From IMG/VR virus record IMGVR_UViG_3300025770_000004, positions 1 to 64,000 of that record: 64,000 nt of DNA. One strand, given 5' to 3'. This DNA comes from a virus. Positions 1,235 to 62,846 of the stretch are shown here, one piece after another (the stretch's first letter is position 1; each line of letters opens with the position of its first letter). The notes under the pieces are model-generated. The model saw only the letters and a list, made by a program, of their open reading frames with translations. It ran no database searches and had not been told where the DNA came from. The position numbers were made by a program, and so were the translations under genes.

Positions 1235-1840
1235 GTGTATAAATCTATCTTATTGTGTTTATTCATATTCACACAACAATTTCTTTATTCACAGATTATA
1301 TGGGTTGAGGATTTTACTCCTTACCTTGATGGTACACAAAATGCATTAAAATGGACAACCAGTGCTAATAATTGTGATGCAGATGGACCACCAGGATCTG
1401 TAGCTGGTAATTATTGGGGAACTTTTAATGGTGAGTTTAGGTGTGAAGATATTGAAGGTTTAACTTGTTGTTCGGGAGGTTCGGGAGGACAAGGTGAAGC
1501 CAATAATTTGTGGTTATCAGAAGATATACCAATCAACGGTTACTCTAGTATTTATTTATCCATAACGACTAGGGTAGAAGGTGATGTAGAATGTGCCGCA
1601 TGTGGTGCCGGTGGTGATTACTTAGAAGCTTCATATCAAATAGATGGTGGTGTATGGATTCCTTTTGTAACTATTTGTGGAGCAACTAATGGATTTATTA
1701 GTACTGATTGTATTTATATCGGTATAGGTAATATCTTAAAGATAAGAGTTTTATTAGGTAACCAAGCAAACAACGAAGTTTATTATTTTGATGATGTTAT
1801 AGTTTATACAACACAAAGTAATGTCATTTACCATAATTAA
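1235..1840 (+). CDS. exported Cys/Gly-rich protein with C-terminal YHN
   Basis: A 201-residue protein from a GTG start (VYKSILL). Residues 2-20 form a signal peptide ending FLYSQ, typical of flavobacterial exported proteins. The mature part is rich in Cys, Gly, Trp and Asp (CSGGSGGQG, CAACGAGGDY) and ends YYFDDVIVYTTQ followed by a short tail closing in YHN. The region resembles beta-sandwich domains of Bacteroidota surface proteins; ending in -HN is shared with the exported proteins at 18005 and 18586. Likely exported during infection; substrate and role unknown. No host-type sorting domain is present. Confidence 0.7.
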   Translation: MYKSILLCLFIFTQQFLYSQIIWVEDFTPYLDGTQNALKWTTSANNCDADGPPGSVAGNYWGTFNGEFRCEDIEGLTCCSGGSGGQGEANNLWLSEDIPINGYSSIYLSITTRVEGDVECAACGAGGDYLEASYQIDGGVWIPFVTICGATNGFISTDCIYIGIGNILKIRVLLGNQANNEVYYFDDVIVYTTQSNVIYHN

Positions 1841-12742: not shown

Positions 12743-12773
12743 TGTTTATTGAAAAATAAACACTATATTTGTG
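12743..12773 (+). promoter_or_regulatory. promoter of the 12803 gene
   Basis: GTTG, 19-base spacer, TATATTTG (12766-12773). It lies inside the frame that stays open from TTG 12749, which shows the true start must be downstream, at ATG 12803. Confidence 0.6.
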
Positions 12774-12802
12774 ATATTAAAAATCAATTAATCGTATTAC
12801 AT

Positions 12803-14506
12803 ATGTTAAAATTTTCAAAGAAGTTTCGGGAGTTACTACAAAGGGTATCGTATAATAAGGTATCTAAAAATCTTTTGCTTATAGAAAGGTTATCTGGAGA
12901 ACCTGACCACAGACATCCTGGGCTTGCAGCAGTTGGAATGGCGTTTGATAGTTTTGATTATAACTTTATAAGTATAGGTGATACGAATAGGTTAGTTACT
13001 TTTACTCCATCTGATAAGGTAGAAAAGATACTTAGTGATTTACCTAAGGTATATGGTGTTAGTTCGATTAGGAATTTAACTCATAGTAATTCTAATAATA
13101 CTATTTTCGGTTTAATAGGATATGATAAGAGTGTTAACGATTATTGGTATCCGGAGCCATCGTGTGATTGTATAGATAGTGTTCTTATGGATGGTGGGTT
13201 ATCGTGTGGTTGTGGTATTGGAGATAAGGGTAAAATTATAAATGAGGTTGTAAGTCCTTCTACTGATAAGGTTTATGTTTTATTCAAGTGTTTAGATACT
13301 GGTAGGTTATCGGTAGTAAATAAAAAGGCTATTATTATTTCTGACAATAGTGATGTTATTTTCACGGTGAATAGGAATTCGATAAAGGTGGGTAGGTTAG
13401 TTAGGCTTATACTTACTACGGCGGGTATAAAGTTTATTACTAAGGATATCGAGGACTTTGTAAATTTATATAAGTCTTCATATGATTTTTCTACTAATAA
13501 GGATATACAGTTTAATATAGTTACTGGTGATAAAATTGCTTTTTGGTATAATGGAGATAATTATGTAGGTGGTGGAGGTCAGTTAAGTAATTCTTGTATG
13601 GCTAATAAGCCAAAGGAATTTTTTAACATCTATTCTAAGAACAGTTGTTGTTCGATGGTAATTTTATATAGTGATGATGGAATTTTGAAACAAGGTTCAT
13701 ATGAATCTGATAGAATCAAGGGTAGGGCGTTATTATGGGATGTAAAGTATAATGGGCGTATGGTAAAGTTTTTAGATAGAATCTACTGTAATGTTGATAG
13801 TGATATAGAGTTATTCAAGACTTATGCTAAGAATAAGGGTTGGTATCGTAAGGTAGAGCAAACGATGTATCCAGAGGCTTGTGTTACTTTAGATGGAAAT
13901 GAGATTGATGATAGGTTTGAGGTTGAATTAGACACGGTTGATATGGATTACTTTCCTTATATGGATACGATGTGTTTTTGTATAAATGAGGATGGTTGTT
14001 TAATTATTACGAATGATAAAGAGTTGGGTCATACAAGGGAGTTTAGGTGTACGAATGGTACATACTTAAAGATAAGGGATAATAGGGAAGTTGGATATGG
14101 TGGGATTGATGCGGATTTTTTATATCCGGAGTATAATGAAGACTTCGACCCTGATCCGGAGTATAATGAAGACTTCGACCCTGATGAAGTTGAGGATGAA
14201 GTTGAGATGCCAATAGATCAGATGGATGAAGGTGAGTGTGTTGAGCAATCAATCGGACGTATAAGAAGGGAAAGTAATGTATCAGAGGTTCAGTCTATCC
14301 TTCATATCGATAGGTTAACGGCAGGGGACTTGGATAGGGTTCGTGAACTTATAATAGAGTCTAGTAGAGTACCAAGGAGATACTTTGATAATATACCTCG
14401 TGAGGTTGATCCTACACCGCCGCCTTCTGAGCCGGTTTTTAATTTAGATGATGATCAATCAGATGTTAACTTTGGATATGGTGATGGAGATGATCTTCCT
14501 TTTTAG
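12803..14506 (+). CDS. large conserved phage protein, unknown (567 aa)
   Basis: ATG 12803 (MLKFSKKFRELLQ) is preferred because the promoter overlaps the upstream part of the open frame. Signature segments are KVGRLVRLIL, ITKDIEDFVNLYKSSYD, IAFWYNGDNY, GQLSNSCMANK and a GWY near residue 350, which together match a conserved large phage protein of unknown function. The C-terminal 150 residues are acidic and contain an exact 30-base tandem repeat coding for EYNEDFDPDP twice (about 14147-14206). Codon choice is more G-rich than in neighbouring genes. Placement next to its own promoter suggests early expression. Confidence 0.75.
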   Translation: MLKFSKKFRELLQRVSYNKVSKNLLLIERLSGEPDHRHPGLAAVGMAFDSFDYNFISIGDTNRLVTFTPSDKVEKILSDLPKVYGVSSIRNLTHSNSNNTIFGLIGYDKSVNDYWYPEPSCDCIDSVLMDGGLSCGCGIGDKGKIINEVVSPSTDKVYVLFKCLDTGRLSVVNKKAIIISDNSDVIFTVNRNSIKVGRLVRLILTTAGIKFITKDIEDFVNLYKSSYDFSTNKDIQFNIVTGDKIAFWYNGDNYVGGGGQLSNSCMANKPKEFFNIYSKNSCCSMVILYSDDGILKQGSYESDRIKGRALLWDVKYNGRMVKFLDRIYCNVDSDIELFKTYAKNKGWYRKVEQTMYPEACVTLDGNEIDDRFEVELDTVDMDYFPYMDTMCFCINEDGCLIITNDKELGHTREFRCTNGTYLKIRDNREVGYGGIDADFLYPEYNEDFDPDPEYNEDFDPDEVEDEVEMPIDQMDEGECVEQSIGRIRRESNVSEVQSILHIDRLTAGDLDRVRELIIESSRVPRRYFDNIPREVDPTPPPSEPVFNLDDDQSDVNFGYGDGDDLPF

Positions 14507-17411: not shown

Positions 17412-18005
17412 TTACTTTAATAGCGTGACGTGTCCGTGAGTTTGTAATTGATAACTATTAAGTGGTTTGTAGTACATCTTCCAAACATAAACTCCGTTTT
17501 GACATAACTTATTTTGATAATACCCATTCCAAGTTTCTAGTGGATTATGTGATTCCCATATCATTTCACCCCATCGATTAAAAATGTACATAATATATTG
17601 TGAATCATCCCACTCACCATTAAATACTGGTCCCCATGTATCATTCATACCATCACCATTAATAGTAAAGCAATTAGGTACGTAAACACCATCAAAAGAA
17701 CATTCATCAATATCTACTAATAAATATGAAGTATCACCAATACACATGTTACTAATAACCGAAACTGATATTTGGTATATATCATAAGGTATATTTAACC
17801 AATTTACTGTAATAAAATCAGTACCTTGCCCATTAACAATAGATCCACCCTCCACAACCCACTCATATACACTACTTGTCGTGGGGTTATCCACCCAATA
17901 ATCTTGTATATATGACTGGTCTTCGGTACACACTTTAATTGTCTGCACATTTTGCGCAGACAACCAAAGAGGTATTAAAAGTAATATGGATAGTAAATAT
18001 TTCAT
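17412..18005 (-). CDS. exported protein with T9SS type B sorting domain (CHU_C type)
   Basis: Residues 1-18 are a signal peptide ending LWLSAQ. Next is an Ig/PKD-like domain (SVYEWVVEGGS, GQGTDFITVNW). The last 85 residues have the signature of the gliding-motility/T9SS type B C-terminal domain: VPNCFTINGDGMNDTW, MYIFNRWGEMIWES, WNGYYQNK, NGVYVWKMYY and GHVTLLK. In flavobacteria this domain directs export through the type IX machinery and surface attachment. Third gene of a three-gene operon, start overlapping the previous stop (TTAATG). Expected on the infected cell's surface; a virion role is an alternative. Confidence 0.85.
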   Translation of the reverse strand: MKYLLSILLLIPLWLSAQNVQTIKVCTEDQSYIQDYWVDNPTTSSVYEWVVEGGSIVNGQGTDFITVNWLNIPYDIYQISVSVISNMCIGDTSYLLVDIDECSFDGVYVPNCFTINGDGMNDTWGPVFNGEWDDSQYIMYIFNRWGEMIWESHNPLETWNGYYQNKLCQNGVYVWKMYYKPLNSYQLQTHGHVTLLK

Positions 18006-18562
18006 TAATTATGTATAATTGGTCCCAATACGGGTGCAGCATTTACAGTTACGACCATCACGATTGAACACCCACCAACTGTGTAAGTTAAGTTAAATAC
18101 ACCATTACCTGACGTTACAGGACAAAATTCGTAAACACCTGCCGTTAATGTAACACCTGTTCCACTCCAAGCACCTCCAGCTGGAGTTCCTGTCAATGTT
18201 ACACAAGGGTCACCCTCACAGAAAGGTCCTATTTGTATAAATGCTGGTAGTAAAATAAAGATATCCAAATCAACCGTATCAGTACATCCTGCAGCGTTTG
18301 TTTCTACCACAGTTACCGCTGTTGGGTATAACCCTGGAACATTACCCCAATCAACTGTGATTGCGTCAGTTCCTTGTCCAGATGTAATTGAACCACCCCC
18401 ACCATTCAATGTCCAATCATAGGTTGATCCTGGTGTATTGGTCACCCAATAGTTTTCACCAACTGCACCAACACATACAGTGTCAGGGTTGGTTGTTATT
18501 TGCGAATAAGAATTACTCACAAATAGTGCTATAATTCCTAAAATTAATAATAGTTTTTTCAT
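18005..18562 (-). CDS. exported PKD-like repeat protein ending IHN
   Basis: Signal peptide (MKKLLLILGIIALFVSNSYSQ). The first domain (STYDWTLNGGGGS, GQGTDAITVDWGNVPG) is homologous to the Ig/PKD-like domain of the downstream T9SS protein. The second half (EGDPCVTLTGTPAGGAWSG, GNGVFNLTYTVGGC) resembles Bacteroidota surface-protein repeats. It lacks a classical sorting domain and ends PVLGPIIHN. It could be an adhesin subunit held by its neighbours. Confidence 0.75.
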   Translation of the reverse strand: MKKLLLILGIIALFVSNSYSQITTNPDTVCVGAVGENYWVTNTPGSTYDWTLNGGGGSITSGQGTDAITVDWGNVPGLYPTAVTVVETNAAGCTDTVDLDIFILLPAFIQIGPFCEGDPCVTLTGTPAGGAWSGTGVTLTAGVYEFCPVTSGNGVFNLTYTVGGCSIVMVVTVNAAPVLGPIIHN

Positions 18563-18585
18563 TTTTTCATTGTTTTTTTTTATTT

Positions 18586-19911
18586 TTAATTATGCCATAT
18601 ACCCACTATACTGGCTTGGCCTCCTGCTAATATAGTTATTGTTATTGTTTGTACACATCCATCATTATCTGTGACGGTGATAGTATATATATCTGGTGCA
18701 AGATTTAACATATTATCCGAACCATTTATATTATTTGATGTTTGTATTATATTTCCATTAGAGTCTTCCCAAACATAATCGAATGGTGCACTACCTTGTC
18801 CTGTTACTGTTATTGTTCCATCATTTTCACCTAAACATATTTCATCTGTGTGTATTTCAGTTGGTATCGGACAGCACGTAAGACTACCACTGAATGCAAA
18901 TATAGGATCATTTTGACAAGCTATATTCGTCCAGCTACCAGTTTCACCATCAGCGTAAGTTTCTATAAAAACACTTAGGTTATCTCCATCTTGACCAGGT
19001 GGACAACTAGTTGTTGTTGCTTCCCAACAAAATTCCCAATTGACATTACCATTACAATTATCTCCGAAATTGTTTGTAGGATTTCCATTTGGATTGTTAA
19101 ACAAATCACCATCAAAGAAAAACCCATTTGAATTTCCGTTTGGTGTGTTGATACCATTAAACCAAGTCCAAACCCCTGGACCAGTGTCACAAGTATTTGC
19201 TCCACTTATTGGTGTGATAGGACCCCAACCAGATGCCATTATAGGAACAACACCATGAAACCAATTTTGATTTTCTTGTGACCATTCTGTTACTGTAAAA
19301 CAAAATGTTACAGTAGTTCCTGGTTGATAGGTTCCATTTATTGGTAATGGAGTGACGGTCATATTAGATGATAATAAACAATCATCACAACTATTATTAT
19401 TTTGTAGTGTTAAATCGAATGTTCCTTGATCTGCAGGGTTTCCTCCACTGATTTGAATGTAATATGTTTGTCCGGGTGTTAATTGAGATGTAGTATTTAA
19501 GTTTCCTCCTCCACCAATATCACAACCGACCCCTATTAATGCTCCACAATTTCCTGTCCATATACCTACATTCGGTTGGTTTATATTTCCATTAATTGTA
19601 ACATCTAATGAATTTCCTGTTGCAACGAATGAATACCAAACATCGGTAGCTGGAGAAGACATATTATTTCCTGGAGTTCCTTGGCAATTTATTAGTGTAG
19701 TATATGGAGCCTCTGTTAATGAGTTTACATTTGTAAGATTATTAAATGTGATTGGAGAACCTTGTCCATTATTCATAGGTCCTGGACCACAATTAGATGG
19801 GTTTGGTAGATTACCTAATGGTATTGCGTTAAGACAATCATCATTAGCTACTTGTGAATTGACATTTGTTAATGAAAATAATAATATTACCAATGTTAAA
19901 AAATATCTCAT
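18586..19911 (-). CDS. large exported multidomain protein ending WHN
   Basis: A 441-residue protein. The signal peptide ends TNVNSQ. Residues about 20-170 (NDDCLNAIPLG, TDVWYSFVATGN, GQTYYIQISGG) match a domain common in flavobacterial secreted proteins and also present in the 30035 product. A Trp/Asn/Gly-rich middle follows, then a SprB-like repeat near the C-terminus (GENDGTITVTGQGSAPFDYVW, LAPDIYTITVTDNDGC). It ends SIVGIWHN. First gene of the operon, downstream of an AT-rich promoter region shared with 21386. Confidence 0.78.
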   Translation of the reverse strand: MRYFLTLVILLFSLTNVNSQVANDDCLNAIPLGNLPNPSNCGPGPMNNGQGSPITFNNLTNVNSLTEAPYTTLINCQGTPGNNMSSPATDVWYSFVATGNSLDVTINGNINQPNVGIWTGNCGALIGVGCDIGGGGNLNTTSQLTPGQTYYIQISGGNPADQGTFDLTLQNNNSCDDCLLSSNMTVTPLPINGTYQPGTTVTFCFTVTEWSQENQNWFHGVVPIMASGWGPITPISGANTCDTGPGVWTWFNGINTPNGNSNGFFFDGDLFNNPNGNPTNNFGDNCNGNVNWEFCWEATTTSCPPGQDGDNLSVFIETYADGETGSWTNIACQNDPIFAFSGSLTCCPIPTEIHTDEICLGENDGTITVTGQGSAPFDYVWEDSNGNIIQTSNNINGSDNMLNLAPDIYTITVTDNDGCVQTITITILAGGQASIVGIWHN

Positions 19912-20012: not shown

Positions 20013-20612
20013 CTACATATCTTCTGGTCTAAATTTCTCTAATCTTCTTTTTACTCTCTTAATTCTATACTCTAAAGTGCTATATATTATACCCATTTCT
20101 TTAGCTACTTCTGATTTTGTTCTACCTTTTAGAAATATTTCGTTAAATATTCGTGTATCATCACTACCTAAAGACTCTACCATCATTTTAATTAATTTTC
20201 GATAGGTTTTAATCTCTATATTTTTATATGTCTCATTAATTGAAGGTTCTGTTATGATTTCGTCAAAAGAAATCTTTTTATTACTTGGTATTCTTTTTTG
20301 TCGAGTTCTTTTCCGGTGACACTCTATCATAAAATTCTTCATCGAATTGGTAATCCAAGTACCAAAAATACTTTTTTCTGGATCATATAAATGTAATTTT
20401 GATGATATCCTACCTAAGAATTCCATAGCCATATCCTCAATCTCTTCGTTATTGTAGTTGTTGTTACCGTACCATTTTATCGCGTTAGTGAAGAAAATAG
20501 GTTTATATGTTTTGAACAATGTTGTAAAAGCTCTTGTGTCTCCATTTAAATATTTTTTAACCAACTCTTTTTCATCACTATTATTTTGTTTAGAATCTAT
20601 ATTATTTTTCAT
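20013..20612 (-). CDS. RNA polymerase sigma factor, sigma-70/ECF-like
   Basis: A 199-residue protein with two-domain sigma layout. Region 2 spans about residues 17-95 (KYLNGDTRAFTTLFKTYKP, DPEKSIFGTWITNSMKNF), and region 4 about 135-195 has a helix-turn-helix (GRTKSEVAKEMGIIYSTLEY, IKRVKRRLEKF). It would redirect host RNA polymerase. The TTTTTAATATATA motif found before virion genes is the natural candidate target. It lies between the exported operon and a 20-aa tail fragment, whose stop is one base from its ATG. Confidence 0.85.
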   Translation of the reverse strand: MKNNIDSKQNNSDEKELVKKYLNGDTRAFTTLFKTYKPIFFTNAIKWYGNNNYNNEEIEDMAMEFLGRISSKLHLYDPEKSIFGTWITNSMKNFMIECHRKRTRQKRIPSNKKISFDEIITEPSINETYKNIEIKTYRKLIKMMVESLGSDDTRIFNEIFLKGRTKSEVAKEMGIIYSTLEYRIKRVKRRLEKFRPEDM

Positions 20613-21440: not shown

Positions 21441-22193
21441 TCATTTTTCTTTAAAGTGTTTCATCCCATGTTCATCTATGTGAGAAACTTCAAACTTACC
21501 ATCCTGATAATCTTTTAACATCTTTGGTTGGTAATCTTCTAATAGCTTACCTCTTGTAACTTCCCATCCATTTGATGGTAGTGTATCTTCTTCAAAATAA
21601 GTATACCTAATCATCCCGACAGCATTAGGGCCCAAGTCCTTAAAAGAACCGTCTTCCATTTCAGCAACGAACTTACCATCGCCTGTATGTCTGTATATTA
21701 AATTTAAAGTCTTTACATTTTCAGTTAATAATTCATCTCTAACTCGCATTATTGCTTCTCCAAGCCAGTTTGTTCCCCTCCACTTGGTCTTGTCAAGGAT
21801 ATCAGGGTCAGTCTCATGCATTCCAATCCCCCAAATAGAGTCTTCTGGTGATGCTTCTACAATTTCTCTATCACCATAAGTTTTTAACTCTTCAAGCATG
21901 AATGAGTTTTGTGTGAACTTAGCATAGTTAGCTTCATAAACATATTCTTTACAAACTTCTTCCCACTTATCTTTGTCAAAACCTCTAACTTTTCTTCCTA
22001 AAGCTTTTTGCTCTCTGGGGTTATTGGTTCTCATTATAGCATTTTCTACATCTTCATCTTCAAATAAAGAAGCTTTCTTATACATCATATACTGTTCTGC
22101 ACAAGTATATTTTTGTCCATCAATTTCAAATTCAGATGCGGCCCATTGGCTGCAGATTCCACCCCAAAAAAATACGTATTTATCTGTTATCAT
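21441..22193 (-). CDS. NADAR-domain protein (YbiA-like N-glycosidase family)
   Basis: Residues 1-150 carry the NADAR signature: VFFWGGICSQWAAS, YTCAEQYMMYKKA, GRKVRGFDKDKW, then DSIWGIGM and WRGTNWLGEAIMRVRDEL near the end of the domain. Family members cleave N-glycosidic bonds in riboflavin intermediates or ADP-ribosylated bases. About 95 extra C-terminal residues are not part of the family core. In a phage it may remove ADP-ribose from DNA or affect NAD-linked defence; that is inference. Encoded with the M3 peptidase on the minus strand. Confidence 0.82.
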   Translation of the reverse strand: MITDKYVFFWGGICSQWAASEFEIDGQKYTCAEQYMMYKKASLFEDEDVENAIMRTNNPREQKALGRKVRGFDKDKWEEVCKEYVYEANYAKFTQNSFMLEELKTYGDREIVEASPEDSIWGIGMHETDPDILDKTKWRGTNWLGEAIMRVRDELLTENVKTLNLIYRHTGDGKFVAEMEDGSFKDLGPNAVGMIRYTYFEEDTLPSNGWEVTRGKLLEDYQPKMLKDYQDGKFEVSHIDEHGMKHFKEK

Positions 22194-22235: not shown

Positions 22236-24266
22236 TTACCCCAACCCTCTAAGTTCATTATTAATTCTTTTTGAATCAAACTTCGCTTGAAGGGATTCAA
22301 ACTCTCGACCTGACGAAACAGGTTGTAATCCGATTAGGTAGTTTACTAATGATTCTTCACTAGGCTTTCTACCCATATAATTAACAAACATATCCATACT
22401 TGGCAGAGATGAGCCCTTACTCAAAAATTCTTCATAATACTTATCACTATCATCATTTTCTCTAAATTTTAAGAAAGTATCAACTGAAAGAACTTCTGAC
22501 CATTTATAAGAGTAATACCCTGCTGAGTATCCACCAGCAAAAATATGACTAAACCCACATTGCCATTTATTACCATCAAAAGATTCCAATCCAAAATCTT
22601 CTATTATCTTATCAAGTGTTGATTGTACATATTCCTTTGACGTATCATCTGATTGGAAAATTGTCATATCGAATTTACCATTCTTCACTTGTCCTATGAT
22701 TCCATTAGCTGCTCTGTATGTTCTTAAATCGTTAATCTTTTTAATGAACTCATCCGGTATTATTTCACCAGTTTCATGGTGTTTACCAAATTTCCTTAAT
22801 ACATCTCCTTCATAAACAAATAGTTCTAAAAATTGAGAACTCCACTCAACAGCATCCCACTCGATACCACCTATACCAGCGTATGTGAAATCTTCCACTT
22901 CTGAACAGACGTGTTGTAATACATGTCCCATCTCATGAAATAGTGTTTCTACTTCATAGTGTGAAAGTAATGATGGTAACTTATCAGTTGATGGTGTGAA
23001 ATTGCAAGTTATATAAGCAATTGGTAAAACCTTTTCACCATTTTCCTTTACATAACCAACTTCTGAATTATTCATCCAAGCACCGGATCTTTTATCATCT
23101 CTAGATTCTAGATCGATATAAACTCTTGAATGTTCTTCACCATTACGTGTTATATCATACACAGTAACCTTTTCATCCCAAACATAAGTATCTACTTTAG
23201 TAAATTTAAGCTTGAATTTTTCATACAGAAAGTCAAATAAACCATTTAACACCATTGATTGTTCAAAATATGGTTTCAAATCTTCTGACTTAAAATCATA
23301 AACACTTTCCTTATATTTATTTGTGTAATAACCTTTATCCCAAGAGTTTAAATGTGTTACGCCATACTTTCTTTCAGTGAATGATAATAATTCATCATCT
23401 TCTTTTGACTTAATAGGTAAGGCGATTGTTGCTAACCTATCCAAAAACCCAACTATTTCATTTGGACTATCAGCCATTTTTGTTAATATCGATATCTCAG
23501 CGTAATTTTTATATCCTAATATTTTAGCCTTTTCGTTTTTAAGAGTTAATATTTTTTCAATAAGTTCTTCATTTTCAGTAGCTCTTGTTGATAATGCTTT
23601 GGATAATTTCTCTCTTATATCTGTGTTAGATCCATACTTTAAGTAAGCTGAGTATGATGGTGCTTGTAAGGTAAATTCCCAATGATCAGTATCCTCTTTT
23701 ACATGTCTTTGTAATTCATCATCAGGGAACTCACTAACATCTTCTGGATTTTTTACTTCTAGTTTGAAATCCTTTGTAGCTTTTAGTAGGTTTGTAGAAA
23801 ATGAATCAGATAACTCAGATAACTCTTTGCTAATTTCACCAAGCCTTTTCTTAATTGAATCTTCTTGACCAATACCCTTTAGTTTGTTACTAAGCAATGA
23901 TTGTTCGATTACTATGCGCTGACTTGGGTTAAGATTTGTTTTCGAAACCTCCAATAATGCTTGATGAATGTCATCTCGTTGACCTATCTTTGTGTACCAA
24001 TCACTCATAATTGGTAAGCTCTCAGTTTCAACACGTTGTGTATCATCAGTATTCTTAACTGAATTTATGTGTGATAGATAAAAGTAATGATTGTTTATAT
24101 CTTCATAAGCCATGAAATATGGCTTTAGGAAAGTATCATATGTTTTATTATCAATTTTTAACAATTCATTTATTACTAATTCTGACTTATTTAATATACT
24201 CTCAAGTTCTGATATATATGTTTCTAAGTTTGGGTATTTAAATTCTGGGTATTTATACATTTTCAT
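22236..24266 (-). CDS. prlC: M3-family zinc oligopeptidase
   Basis: A 676-residue protein with the usual length and layout of oligopeptidase A/Dcp. The zinc site HEMGH is at about residues 444-448 in YEVETLFHEMGHVLQH, the third ligand Glu lies in EWDAVEWSSQFLE about 25 residues on, and the substrate loop GGYSAGYYSYKWSEV follows near 595. It lacks a signal peptide, so it acts in the cytoplasm on short peptides. Start ATG 24266 or 24260 (MYKYPEF). Rare in phages; may degrade signal peptides or cleaved leaders, or a host defence peptide. Gene symbol reflects family only. Confidence 0.88.
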   Translation of the reverse strand: MKMYKYPEFKYPNLETYISELESILNKSELVINELLKIDNKTYDTFLKPYFMAYEDINNHYFYLSHINSVKNTDDTQRVETESLPIMSDWYTKIGQRDDIHQALLEVSKTNLNPSQRIVIEQSLLSNKLKGIGQEDSIKKRLGEISKELSELSDSFSTNLLKATKDFKLEVKNPEDVSEFPDDELQRHVKEDTDHWEFTLQAPSYSAYLKYGSNTDIREKLSKALSTRATENEELIEKILTLKNEKAKILGYKNYAEISILTKMADSPNEIVGFLDRLATIALPIKSKEDDELLSFTERKYGVTHLNSWDKGYYTNKYKESVYDFKSEDLKPYFEQSMVLNGLFDFLYEKFKLKFTKVDTYVWDEKVTVYDITRNGEEHSRVYIDLESRDDKRSGAWMNNSEVGYVKENGEKVLPIAYITCNFTPSTDKLPSLLSHYEVETLFHEMGHVLQHVCSEVEDFTYAGIGGIEWDAVEWSSQFLELFVYEGDVLRKFGKHHETGEIIPDEFIKKINDLRTYRAANGIIGQVKNGKFDMTIFQSDDTSKEYVQSTLDKIIEDFGLESFDGNKWQCGFSHIFAGGYSAGYYSYKWSEVLSVDTFLKFRENDDSDKYYEEFLSKGSSLPSMDMFVNYMGRKPSEESLVNYLIGLQPVSSGREFESLQAKFDSKRINNELRGLG

Positions 24267-30034: not shown

Positions 30035-31498
30035 ATGAATAAAATAGTATTAGTACTAATACTGTTGATATCAACAATTGGATATTCTCAATATGATTCA
30101 ACAGAATGGTTTATGCCTGATAAAAAAGTTGTTAATATACAACTTAAAGCTGCTCCTATGAATGATGATTGTTCATCAGCATCAATACTAGTTATTGATG
30201 CTGGTTTAAATTGTACAGGAACAACATTTGACGCAACTTTACAAGTTGGTGAATGTTATACTAATTATGGTGGAGGATCAACTGAACATTCTGTTTGGTA
30301 TAGTTTCACAGCAAATAACGATTCTCTAGTATTCGCTTTTAATAAGATTAATTACACTAATTGTGTTAGTCCACATATTAGAATATATGATGCTAACTTA
30401 GGGTGTTTACCTGTGTGTGGTACTGAAATTTATAATTATTTACATAACGGGGATCCCGGACAAAACACGATGCTCACCAGTCTTACTATCGGAGCAACAT
30501 ACTTAGTACAAGTCGTTGATTTGTATTGTGGAGGACCAAATGATAGACACACAGAATTTTGTATTGGTGTTTTTAGTCCCTTGGTTAATAATATTTCTAG
30601 TGGATCAGCTGGTATAGATTCTTGTGGCCAAACATACAACGGTACTAATACCGGATACACACCAGAAGATTTAATATCAGGTGGTGAAAATTTAGATGGT
30701 AATATTGGAACAACTTGTCCAACATGCACACCGGGAGATGATGTTCCTTATGTGGTTAACAATAGTTCTTGGTTTAGTTTCTGCACAACATTGGCAGGGG
30801 TTTATAACATAGACTTTAGTGGAATAACAAACTGTGTTAACCCGTCTCCTAACTATGGATTACAGATGACAATATTTAGCGGAACTGCAAATAATCTAAC
30901 ATTTATTGAATCTGCTCCGAGTCCATCAAATCCAGGATCTAGTTGGTCCTCTAGCAATTTCAATGTAGCAGCTGGTGAATGTATCTTCTTAGTTGTTGAT
31001 GGATTTGCTGGAGACCAGTGTGATTATCAATACATACTTAATAATATATCAGGTGGTTGTAACTTAGCCCCATTACCAATTGACTTAGTTTTTTTTAATG
31101 GTGAATTGATAATCGGTACTAGCGGCCGACAGGGGTTATTAAAATGGGTAACTGCCACAGAAATAAATAATGATTATTATAATATAGAAAGATCAATTGA
31201 TGGATATAACTGGGAAACTATACACACTCTTAGTGGTGCTGGTAATTCAATAATGACGAAAAGTTATAAATATATTGATGTGAGTATAAAGAGAGGAGTT
31301 AATTATTATAAATTAACACAGTTTGATTTTAATGGTTTATCAAAAACATTTGATATAATAACAATAAATAATGAAATTAAAGAAAGGAAATTGATTAAAG
31401 TATTAAATTTTATGGGACAAGAAGTTAATGAATATTCTGAGGGATTATTACTTTATCATTATTCAAATGGAGAAGTGATAAAGATGGTAAGTCAATAA
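30035..31498 (+). CDS. exported surface protein with T9SS-type C-terminal domain (487 aa)
   Basis: Signal peptide (MNKIVLVLILLISTIGYSQ). Two copies of a secreted Bacteroidota domain follow: NDDCSSASILV...HSVWYSFTANND (about 45-185) and CGQTYNGTNTGYTPED...NSSWFSFCTTLAG (about 190-340). The last 140 residues have the LP-I-L-F ... LKWVTATEINNDYYNIERS, GAGNS, NYYKLTQFDFNG, KVLNFMGQEVN layout of C-terminal domains of flavobacterial type IX-secreted proteins. Preceded by a late-type promoter, so it could be displayed late on the cell or carried on the virion. Confidence 0.82.
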   Translation: MNKIVLVLILLISTIGYSQYDSTEWFMPDKKVVNIQLKAAPMNDDCSSASILVIDAGLNCTGTTFDATLQVGECYTNYGGGSTEHSVWYSFTANNDSLVFAFNKINYTNCVSPHIRIYDANLGCLPVCGTEIYNYLHNGDPGQNTMLTSLTIGATYLVQVVDLYCGGPNDRHTEFCIGVFSPLVNNISSGSAGIDSCGQTYNGTNTGYTPEDLISGGENLDGNIGTTCPTCTPGDDVPYVVNNSSWFSFCTTLAGVYNIDFSGITNCVNPSPNYGLQMTIFSGTANNLTFIESAPSPSNPGSSWSSSNFNVAAGECIFLVVDGFAGDQCDYQYILNNISGGCNLAPLPIDLVFFNGELIIGTSGRQGLLKWVTATEINNDYYNIERSIDGYNWETIHTLSGAGNSIMTKSYKYIDVSIKRGVNYYKLTQFDFNGLSKTFDIITINNEIKERKLIKVLNFMGQEVNEYSEGLLLYHYSNGEVIKMVSQ

Positions 31499-61118: not shown

Positions 61119-62846
61119 ATGGCTACTAATTTTTCATCAATAACTTTTACCGGTATTAAGGCTGAGATAGAAAGGTATTTAAAAAAAGAACATAACAAAG
61201 CGGGTCTTCTTTTTAGTCCTGCTTCTCCATATGGTCAGATATTATCTGTTATTGAAAATTTACACCAAATGTCAATCTTATATTTGAAGAATTCAATTGA
61301 CCAATTTGATTTAAGTAACCCAAATGCTTTAAATAGGAAAGTTATAAGAAATGCGGCAATTTTTGCTGGACATATCCCGGGTAGATCAATAAGTGCTACT
61401 GGTACTTTGAAGTTTACCTTAAAATCAAATCTTGATGTGGCCGATCAAATACCTGGATCAAGATTGACATTTAATAATAGATTATTGATTAAGAATAAAA
61501 CAAACGCTCTTGATTACTCATTTAGTATTGGAACTGAAAAAGTAACACACAAAATAACTCCTAATTATAAATTCTTCGTACCAATAATACAAGGTAAATG
61601 GATGAGAAAAACTTATACAGGTGATGGAACACAATTACAAACATTATCATTATCAGAAATAAGCCAAAAAGATATCGAGAACTTCAACGTTGAAATATTG
61701 GTTAATGGTGATTTTTGGTCATTAAAAAAGCATATTTATGAAATGTTGCCTGATGAACAAGCTTGTGTTGTTAGAACTGGATTTAACGGTGGTGTAGATA
61801 TTGTTTTTGGTAATGGTGGGTTCGGATTGAAACCACCAATTGGTTCCTCAATAGAGGTAAATTATTTAGTATCTGATGGATCGACTGGTAACATATTTAG
61901 AAGAACAAGAGATGATTGGGAGTTTGTTGGAAATGTATTAGATGGAAATGGTGAAACCATGGATGTCGCTGATGTATTCAACATAGATATTTATACAGAT
62001 ATAAACTTTGGTGCTGATGCTGAAAATCTATTATTTACAAAAAATATATTACCAATATCGAGTAATAACTTTGTTTTAGGATTACCACAACAATATGCGT
62101 ATGAGATTAAGAAGTTAGGAGTTTTCTCACATGTAAATGCTTATGAGAGATTCGGAACAATATTTATTGTCGCTACACCAAATATAAGATTATTTAAGAA
62201 TCGAAATGCTGATTATTTCACAATTGATATAAAAGCTTTTGAGCTTGATAGATATGAGAAATCTAAGATAGATAAATATCTTAGGACAGGAGGACAGTTA
62301 CAATTAACAAGAAAATATAGAGTAGATTCACCAAAAATATCATATTATATAATGAATATATTCGTTATGAATTATTCGGATGCAACTGACGATTCGGTTA
62401 ATGCACAAATATTAGATAAGATATCAGAATACTTTTTAGACTTAAAAAGAATAGATAGAATACCAAAGCTTGATATAATAAGAGAACTATCAACAATAAA
62501 TGATGTACACTCTATTGATCTTCAATTCATGTGTAAAAAGAATGAGGATTACCACAAAGAAAATAAAATAAATGTTGAAAACAAATTATCAAATTTTGAT
62601 TCTAAGATAAATGTTGATATATCAACACCAAAAGCTGATCCAAATTATATTTCAAATAAAGTTATTGGTTTAGATCCGGTTCTTGATGATATAATATTTG
62701 AAGCAGATGAAATACCGGTTATTAGAGGTGGTTGGTATGATAGAAACGGTCTATATTATTCTGATAATATAGATGGTGGTGGTTTAAAATCAGTAAATAT
62801 TATTAAAAAGGGTATTGTTGATTCAAAAAATAGAGCGGGTATATAA
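61119..62846 (+). CDS. baseplate wedge protein (gp6/baseplate J-like, 575 aa)
   Basis: The N-terminus has the gp6/J-like helix LLFSPASPYGQILSVIENLHQ and NPNALNRKVIRNAAIFAGHIPGR. A beta-rich centre includes VNGDFWSLKKHIYEMLPDE and GVDIVFGNGGFGLKPPIGSSI, the segment typical of phage baseplate J/gp6 proteins (FGDG-FG--P--G). The C-terminus has DISEYFLDLKRIDRIPKLDI, again typical. It forms part of the wedge of a contractile-tail baseplate. Clear myovirus-type hallmark. Confidence 0.85.
   Translation: MATNFSSITFTGIKAEIERYLKKEHNKAGLLFSPASPYGQILSVIENLHQMSILYLKNSIDQFDLSNPNALNRKVIRNAAIFAGHIPGRSISATGTLKFTLKSNLDVADQIPGSRLTFNNRLLIKNKTNALDYSFSIGTEKVTHKITPNYKFFVPIIQGKWMRKTYTGDGTQLQTLSLSEISQKDIENFNVEILVNGDFWSLKKHIYEMLPDEQACVVRTGFNGGVDIVFGNGGFGLKPPIGSSIEVNYLVSDGSTGNIFRRTRDDWEFVGNVLDGNGETMDVADVFNIDIYTDINFGADAENLLFTKNILPISSNNFVLGLPQQYAYEIKKLGVFSHVNAYERFGTIFIVATPNIRLFKNRNADYFTIDIKAFELDRYEKSKIDKYLRTGGQLQLTRKYRVDSPKISYYIMNIFVMNYSDATDDSVNAQILDKISEYFLDLKRIDRIPKLDIIRELSTINDVHSIDLQFMCKKNEDYHKENKINVENKLSNFDSKINVDISTPKADPNYISNKVIGLDPVLDDIIFEADEIPVIRGGWYDRNGLYYSDNIDGGGLKSVNIIKKGIVDSKNRAGI

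Follow-up and report, generated by a model that had tools for sequence, protein, structure and literature searches.

A huge virus record of 312,709 bases (IMGVR_UViG_3300025770_000004), whose bases 1-64000 constitute the window analysed here, carries a cassette of three consecutive minus-strand genes, A, B and C, for predicted exported proteins, the last of which contains a type B sorting domain (CHU_C) of the Bacteroidota type IX system (T9SS), while the other two end in a shared short motif, (P/G/S)-I-x-H-(N/D/F/Y). On these sequence features, the chances seem about even that A, B and C make up, as tip, spacer and anchor, a single adhesin or fibre that the phage encodes for display on the Bacteroidota cell it infects. 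A wider proposal is more tentative and falls short of an even chance: that CTD-less subunits, exported separately, would join a small CTD-bearing carrier through the I-x-H-N peptide and reach the cell surface with it, and that unrelated huge phages would have this kit in common, exchange it and use it to alter the surface of infected Bacteroidota.

The three genes and their products

Transcription runs from 19911 to 17412, the gene order given in the earlier note, so that the CHU_C gene comes last, and the ATG of gene C overlaps the stop codon of gene B. Gene A (18586..19911, minus strand) codes for a 441-aa protein with a signal peptide, a variable N-terminal domain, a single SprB-like repeat (about 18757-18858, minus strand; 27.6 bits, just below the cut-off of 28) and the C-terminal motif G-I-W-H-N (18589..18603, minus strand). 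The 185-aa product of gene B (18005..18562, minus strand) contains a signal peptide and two Ig/PKD-like domains, with PKD_6 above its cut-off, and ends in the tail P-V-L-G-P-I-I-H-N (18008..18034, minus strand); its structure model shows a pair of Ig-like domains and a tail of low confidence that is probably flexible. Gene C (17412..18005, minus strand) encodes a 197-aa protein with a signal peptide, a PKD_6-like domain and the CHU_C domain (17430-17681, minus strand; residues 109-191).

As had been noted earlier, three consecutive genes have signal-peptide-like starts (MKYLLSILLLIPLWLSAQ, MKKLLLILGIIALFVSNSYSQ and MRYFLTLVILLFSLTNVNSQ); they were found as minus-strand ORFs at the predicted positions and, as scored by hydropathy only, each N-terminus combines a basic residue with a hydrophobic stretch and a cleavage context of the SQ/AQ type. 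The Sec signal peptide of gene C, predicted from hydropathy and cleavage context, is kept in 15 aligned relatives. The CHU_C-type end ascribed to the last protein was confirmed by two profiles, both above their cut-offs: Pfam PF13585 (52.5 bits against a cut-off of 27, E=5.4e-14) and the type B sorting profile TIGR04131 (43.5 bits against 35). Judged by sequence, gene C encodes a genuine type B substrate of the T9SS. No other CHU_C gene occurs in the 312,709-base record, and 14 control genomes gave no match to this domain. When genes A and B were scored for CHU_C, TIGR04131 and TIGR04183, no match was found, so that the proposed export of the whole trio through the T9SS stands for gene C, which is tagged, and not for A and B, which lack a T9SS signal and would halt in the periplasm unless carried by C or by a reader of their C-terminal motif.

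SprB-like adhesins are one giant chain with a CTD; here there are three ORFs, each with its own start and signal peptide. A single gene broken by a sequencing error is ruled out by these separate starts and signal peptides, and is also contradicted by the recurrence of the identical three-way split in independent contigs. The dN/dS of the cassette against its relatives is 0.08-0.29, indicating that the three ORFs are not due to chance. Fold searches with the models of gene A (mean pLDDT 70) and gene B yielded nothing beyond generic Ig-type matches and gave no hint of function. A further stand-alone B appeared as a structure match in BFVD (A0A6J5NML0), a 185-aa PKD-like protein from an uncultured Caudovirales phage that is 44% identical to B.

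The phage and the surroundings of the cassette

The record is a huge virus of a putative Bacteroidota host. It has 414 non-overlapping ORFs, 240 of which find matches, in long collinear blocks, in the 642-kb megaphage LR756502, and it contains a UvsX-like gene and, outside the cassette, a gene for a baseplate wedge protein (phrog_219; 61119..62846, plus strand). This synteny and these hallmark genes bear out the phage origin assumed in the earlier note and rule out host contamination or a host chromosomal segment, the alternative it had named. The matches cover mainly the 260-632 kb portion of LR756502, suggesting that the genome is probably incomplete. Three paralogues (window 12749-14506, G000 128363-129709 and G000 181880-183886) all match one LR756502 protein (496224-497447).

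The cassette lies in a variable region beside genes for a sigma factor, a NADAR-domain protein and an M3 peptidase. The NADAR gene (window 21441-22193, E=1.7e-49) adjoins that of a full M3-family peptidase (22236-24266). The sigma-70/ECF-like sigma factor (20013..20612, minus strand), which might drive a late or accessory regulon, is encoded directly upstream of gene A; in only one other phage does a relative (68% identical) lie upstream of the cassette, about 3 kb away. Its link to the cassette is uncertain, and the case for a conserved partnership is weak, since it adjoins only two cassettes. Gene 0 (1235..1840, plus strand) encodes a predicted exported protein of 201 aa whose tail, NVIYHN, follows the same motif as A and B; a relative lies directly behind gene C in the phage contig IMGVR_3300009103_000001. 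A search of the phage collection with gene 0 gave no match, and one of IMG/VR only a single further relative.

Recurrence in other phages

IMG/VR was searched with alignment for relatives of gene B and likewise of gene C. Gene C relatives occur at no fewer than 259 IMG/VR places, the best 80 of which were analysed, lineages being defined as clusters at 90% identity of gene C. Among these best 80 of 259, 30 lineages have a short C (176-218 aa) and 31 a long C (660-1040 aa), one of the latter being bacterial (L137), which leaves 30 viral ones. The order A>B>C, each gene with a signal-like start, is kept in about 27 IMG/VR lineages (at least 20 other phages), some of them otherwise unrelated, and several cassette-bearing contigs also encode terminase or baseplate genes. 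In the contig IMGVR_3300009103_000001 the identities to our phage are 81% for A, 78% for B, 50% for C, 79% for gene 0 and 68% for the sigma factor, yet only 29 of the contig's 269 ORFs match our phage at all (mean 42%), and the DnaK-like protein is 62% identical.

Single-gene counterparts are found in megaphages of the same or a related group. A 1670-aa protein of LR756502 comprises a signal peptide, an A-type domain (43% identical to gene A), 14 SprB repeats, PKD and CHU_C, and a 732-aa protein of LR745206 comprises SprB, PKD_6 and CHU_C. Both have the domains of the cassette in the same order but form one polypeptide, and no tail motif was present at the joints of the fused proteins examined. 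Following the Rosetta-stone argument, these one-gene versions suggest that A, B and C probably belong to one structure. Since the trio recurs, with a tail common to A and B, in at least 20 other and often unrelated phages, these viruses probably assemble a structure of several parts on the cells they infect.

The mini-SprB gene of LR756502 is located elsewhere, at a site where our phage has no such gene. A tree of gene C, whose few columns limit its resolution, contains a mostly phage clade that mixes split and fused forms and pairs the LR756502 proteins with bacterial ones. The distribution of the cassette and this tree fit a history in which phages acquired it from hosts several times and passed it to one another.

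The earlier note called it unusual for a phage to use its host's T9SS to decorate the host surface; T9SS tags on phage proteins have precedents: type A T9SS domains were reported in a cryoconite phage (PMC7468147) and T9SS sorting domains near crAss-like BACON genes (PMC6949934), in addition to the 259 or more IMG/VR places with a gene C relative. These cases resemble the cassette in that phage proteins carry T9SS sorting domains. In the Cryophage, however, the domains are of type A and sit on enzymes or on a PA14 protein, and neither the Cryophage proteins nor the crAss-like BACON neighbours were presented as a type B cassette of several subunits bearing a tail motif. A search of the open-access literature found neither the split cassette nor the tail motif, and the tail sequences gave nothing relevant there. 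The split cassette with its tail therefore counts as a new form of cargo for the type B route of the T9SS rather than as a new secretion system.

Bacterial counterparts and the PorP/SprF shuttle

In bacteria, the domains of the cassette are found in large proteins. A relative of the gene A domain forms the N-terminus of giant adhesins (1275-2716 aa) in Flavobacteriales, and B-like domains lie inside large proteins; no stand-alone B was found among the eight best candidates per genome in 396 sampled Bacteroidota genomes, and no split cluster with a tail in 20 SprF neighbourhoods of three genomes. Type B substrates of Flavobacterium johnsoniae (SprB and other CHU_C/TIGR04131 proteins), which use PorP/SprF shuttles, share with the cassette the signal peptide, the Ig/PKD modules, a putative SprB-type module and the CHU_C domain, whereas the cassette consists of three exported proteins with the CTD on one and tails on the others, has no shuttle gene and is phage-borne. 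The GhpA grappling-hook protein of Aureispira (PDB 9flp), a giant surface protein of the T9SS class, has a C-terminal CHU_C region homologous to gene C (E=1.8e-20), but it is a single chain of 5898 aa from a predatory bacterium.

One bacterial chromosome (G421, locus L236) carries a cluster of split genes coding for an exported protein of 596 aa ending in NIFHN, an exported PKD protein of 392 aa ending in SPIFHN and a PKD and CHU_C protein of 332 aa. It differs from the cassette in its larger proteins, in the PorP/SprF gene (identified by Pfam) that follows it and in its chromosomal location. The split design thus looks present but rare in bacteria (one found), where single giant adhesins are the norm, and common in phages.

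Type B CTDs depend on shuttles of the PorP/SprF type, which for orphan substrates can be a shared one encoded at a distance (PMC12618676). A neighbouring PorP/SprF gene is common, though not obligatory, for type B substrates; there is none beside gene C, and none was found in 16 phage records, whereas the same search recovered 7, 34 and 15 copies in three Bacteroidota genomes used as a positive control. The lack of a phage shuttle suggests dependence on that of the host.

The C-terminal tail

Among the best 80 of 259 gene C relatives, the gene preceding C has the ending I-x-H-x, or its variant I-x-K-Q, in 27 of the 30 short-C lineages and the second gene before C also carries the tail in 23 of 30, while an upstream tail occurs in none of the 30 viral lineages with a fused C (27/30 against 0/30, Fisher p=9e-14). 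Among 2106 distinct ORFs of at least 100 aa, the ending I-x-H-(N/D/F/Y) occurs in 63; all that were inspected proved to be A, B or gene 0. In each of 23 pairs of A and B from the same genome, the two final residues belonged to one class (HN/HN, HD/HD, HF/HF, HY/HY, HY/HF and H/KQ), an agreement whose permutation p of 5e-5 is overstated because the tree shows the D, F/Y and KQ cases to be about three lineages.

The HN of the tail is encoded by alternating CAT/CAC and AAT/AAC codons, followed by different stops and by varying spacing to the next gene. The synonymous variation indicates that selection acts on the protein and, together with the variation of stops and spacing, rules out a DNA-level feature (stop codon, ribosome binding or overlap). 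An intein-like ending was rejected as well: inteins end in HN, but no HINT domain is present and HF, HY and HD variants exist. Nor is the tail strictly phage-specific, as the bacterial G421 cluster shows.

Rather than docking to another subunit, the tail could be a new minimal signal for export or anchoring, read by a protein of the host envelope, a reading that we consider rather unlikely. Its presence on proteins of different fold, including gene 0, is consistent with such a signal, and so is the lineage-wise co-variation of the last residue, which would be expected of tails that all meet a single receptor. However, in 25 Flavobacteria-class chromosomes the motif is not enriched over the reversed control (12 against 14), and its absence whenever the parts are fused to CHU_C fits a link between subunits.

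Proposed assembly and its alternatives

In the adhesin or fibre model, A, B and C would each be exported to the periplasm by Sec, as their signal peptides suggest, and C would cross the outer membrane by the host T9SS owing to its type B domain, presumably with a host PorP/SprF shuttle. The flexible P-I-x-H-N-type tails of A and B would most likely dock onto the next subunit or a common partner and so replace the covalent links of the fused one-gene versions, as motif conservation, gene order and the fusions suggest. Gene A varies between phages, as would be expected of a binding tip, and the assembled proteins would be displayed at the surface. Their likely use would be to change binding by, or to, the infected cell, with the masking of phage receptors or sticking to neighbouring cells as candidate benefits. 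Two benefits, receptor masking or the exclusion of other phages on the one hand and cell-to-cell adhesion on the other, appear about level, and both are placed ahead of competition for the T9SS. If the model is correct, many large Bacteroidota phages would use the host's adhesin-export machine to place multi-part structures on infected cells, a layer of the phage-host relationship hardly examined so far. The cassette would also provide a small, testable three-protein model for the assembly of T9SS type B cargo, in which it can be asked whether proteins without a secretion domain ride along, and the tail motif offers a means to recognise further members.

A role in virion assembly or release, with the proteins placed on or with the virion or preventing its sticking to debris of the lysed host, is unlikely. 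In several phages the fused CHU_C gene sits between the tail tube and baseplate hub genes, which suggests late expression there, and phage virions often carry such Ig folds. However, virion proteins of tailed phages normally have no signal peptide and are assembled in the cytoplasm, and the present cassette is not adjacent to structural genes. One such fused gene (L207 3919-6378) encodes a predicted exported CHU_C protein of 819 aa between the tail tube and the baseplate hub, and the same arrangement is seen in several related contigs.

It is quite improbable that gene C is a decoy, an abundant small type B protein that would occupy the host T9SS and SprF-like shuttles and block gliding adhesins and other surface proteins from display while A and B act in the periplasm. 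Some small phage proteins barely exceed a signal peptide and CHU_C and might be decoy substrates of this kind, namely a 116-aa protein of LR756502 (597508-597858), a 127-aa open frame of LR745206 (498975-499202) and a 139-aa relative in IMGVR_3300009103_000001 (L100 13838-14257), and the phage brings no shuttle. Yet a decoy leaves unexplained the conserved A and B, their tails and the fused SprB-like versions with 14 repeats.

That the cassette was copied from a host cluster of surface-protein genes and persists as an unneeded remnant or passenger, with no role in infection, is very improbable: the giant adhesins of hosts share its domains and one bacterial split cluster exists, but purifying selection, the recurrence in many unrelated phages, the conserved tail motif and the lack of a stand-alone B among the eight best candidates per genome in the 396 sampled Bacteroidota genomes argue against it.

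The phage encodes a second T9SS-tagged protein, outside the window (G000 89851-90822, corresponding to L003 5851-6822), whose sorting domain is of type A (TIGR04183, 25.0 bits against a cut-off of 23). Its paralogues, at 30035-31498 of the window and at G000 114900-115925, match the same LR756502 protein.
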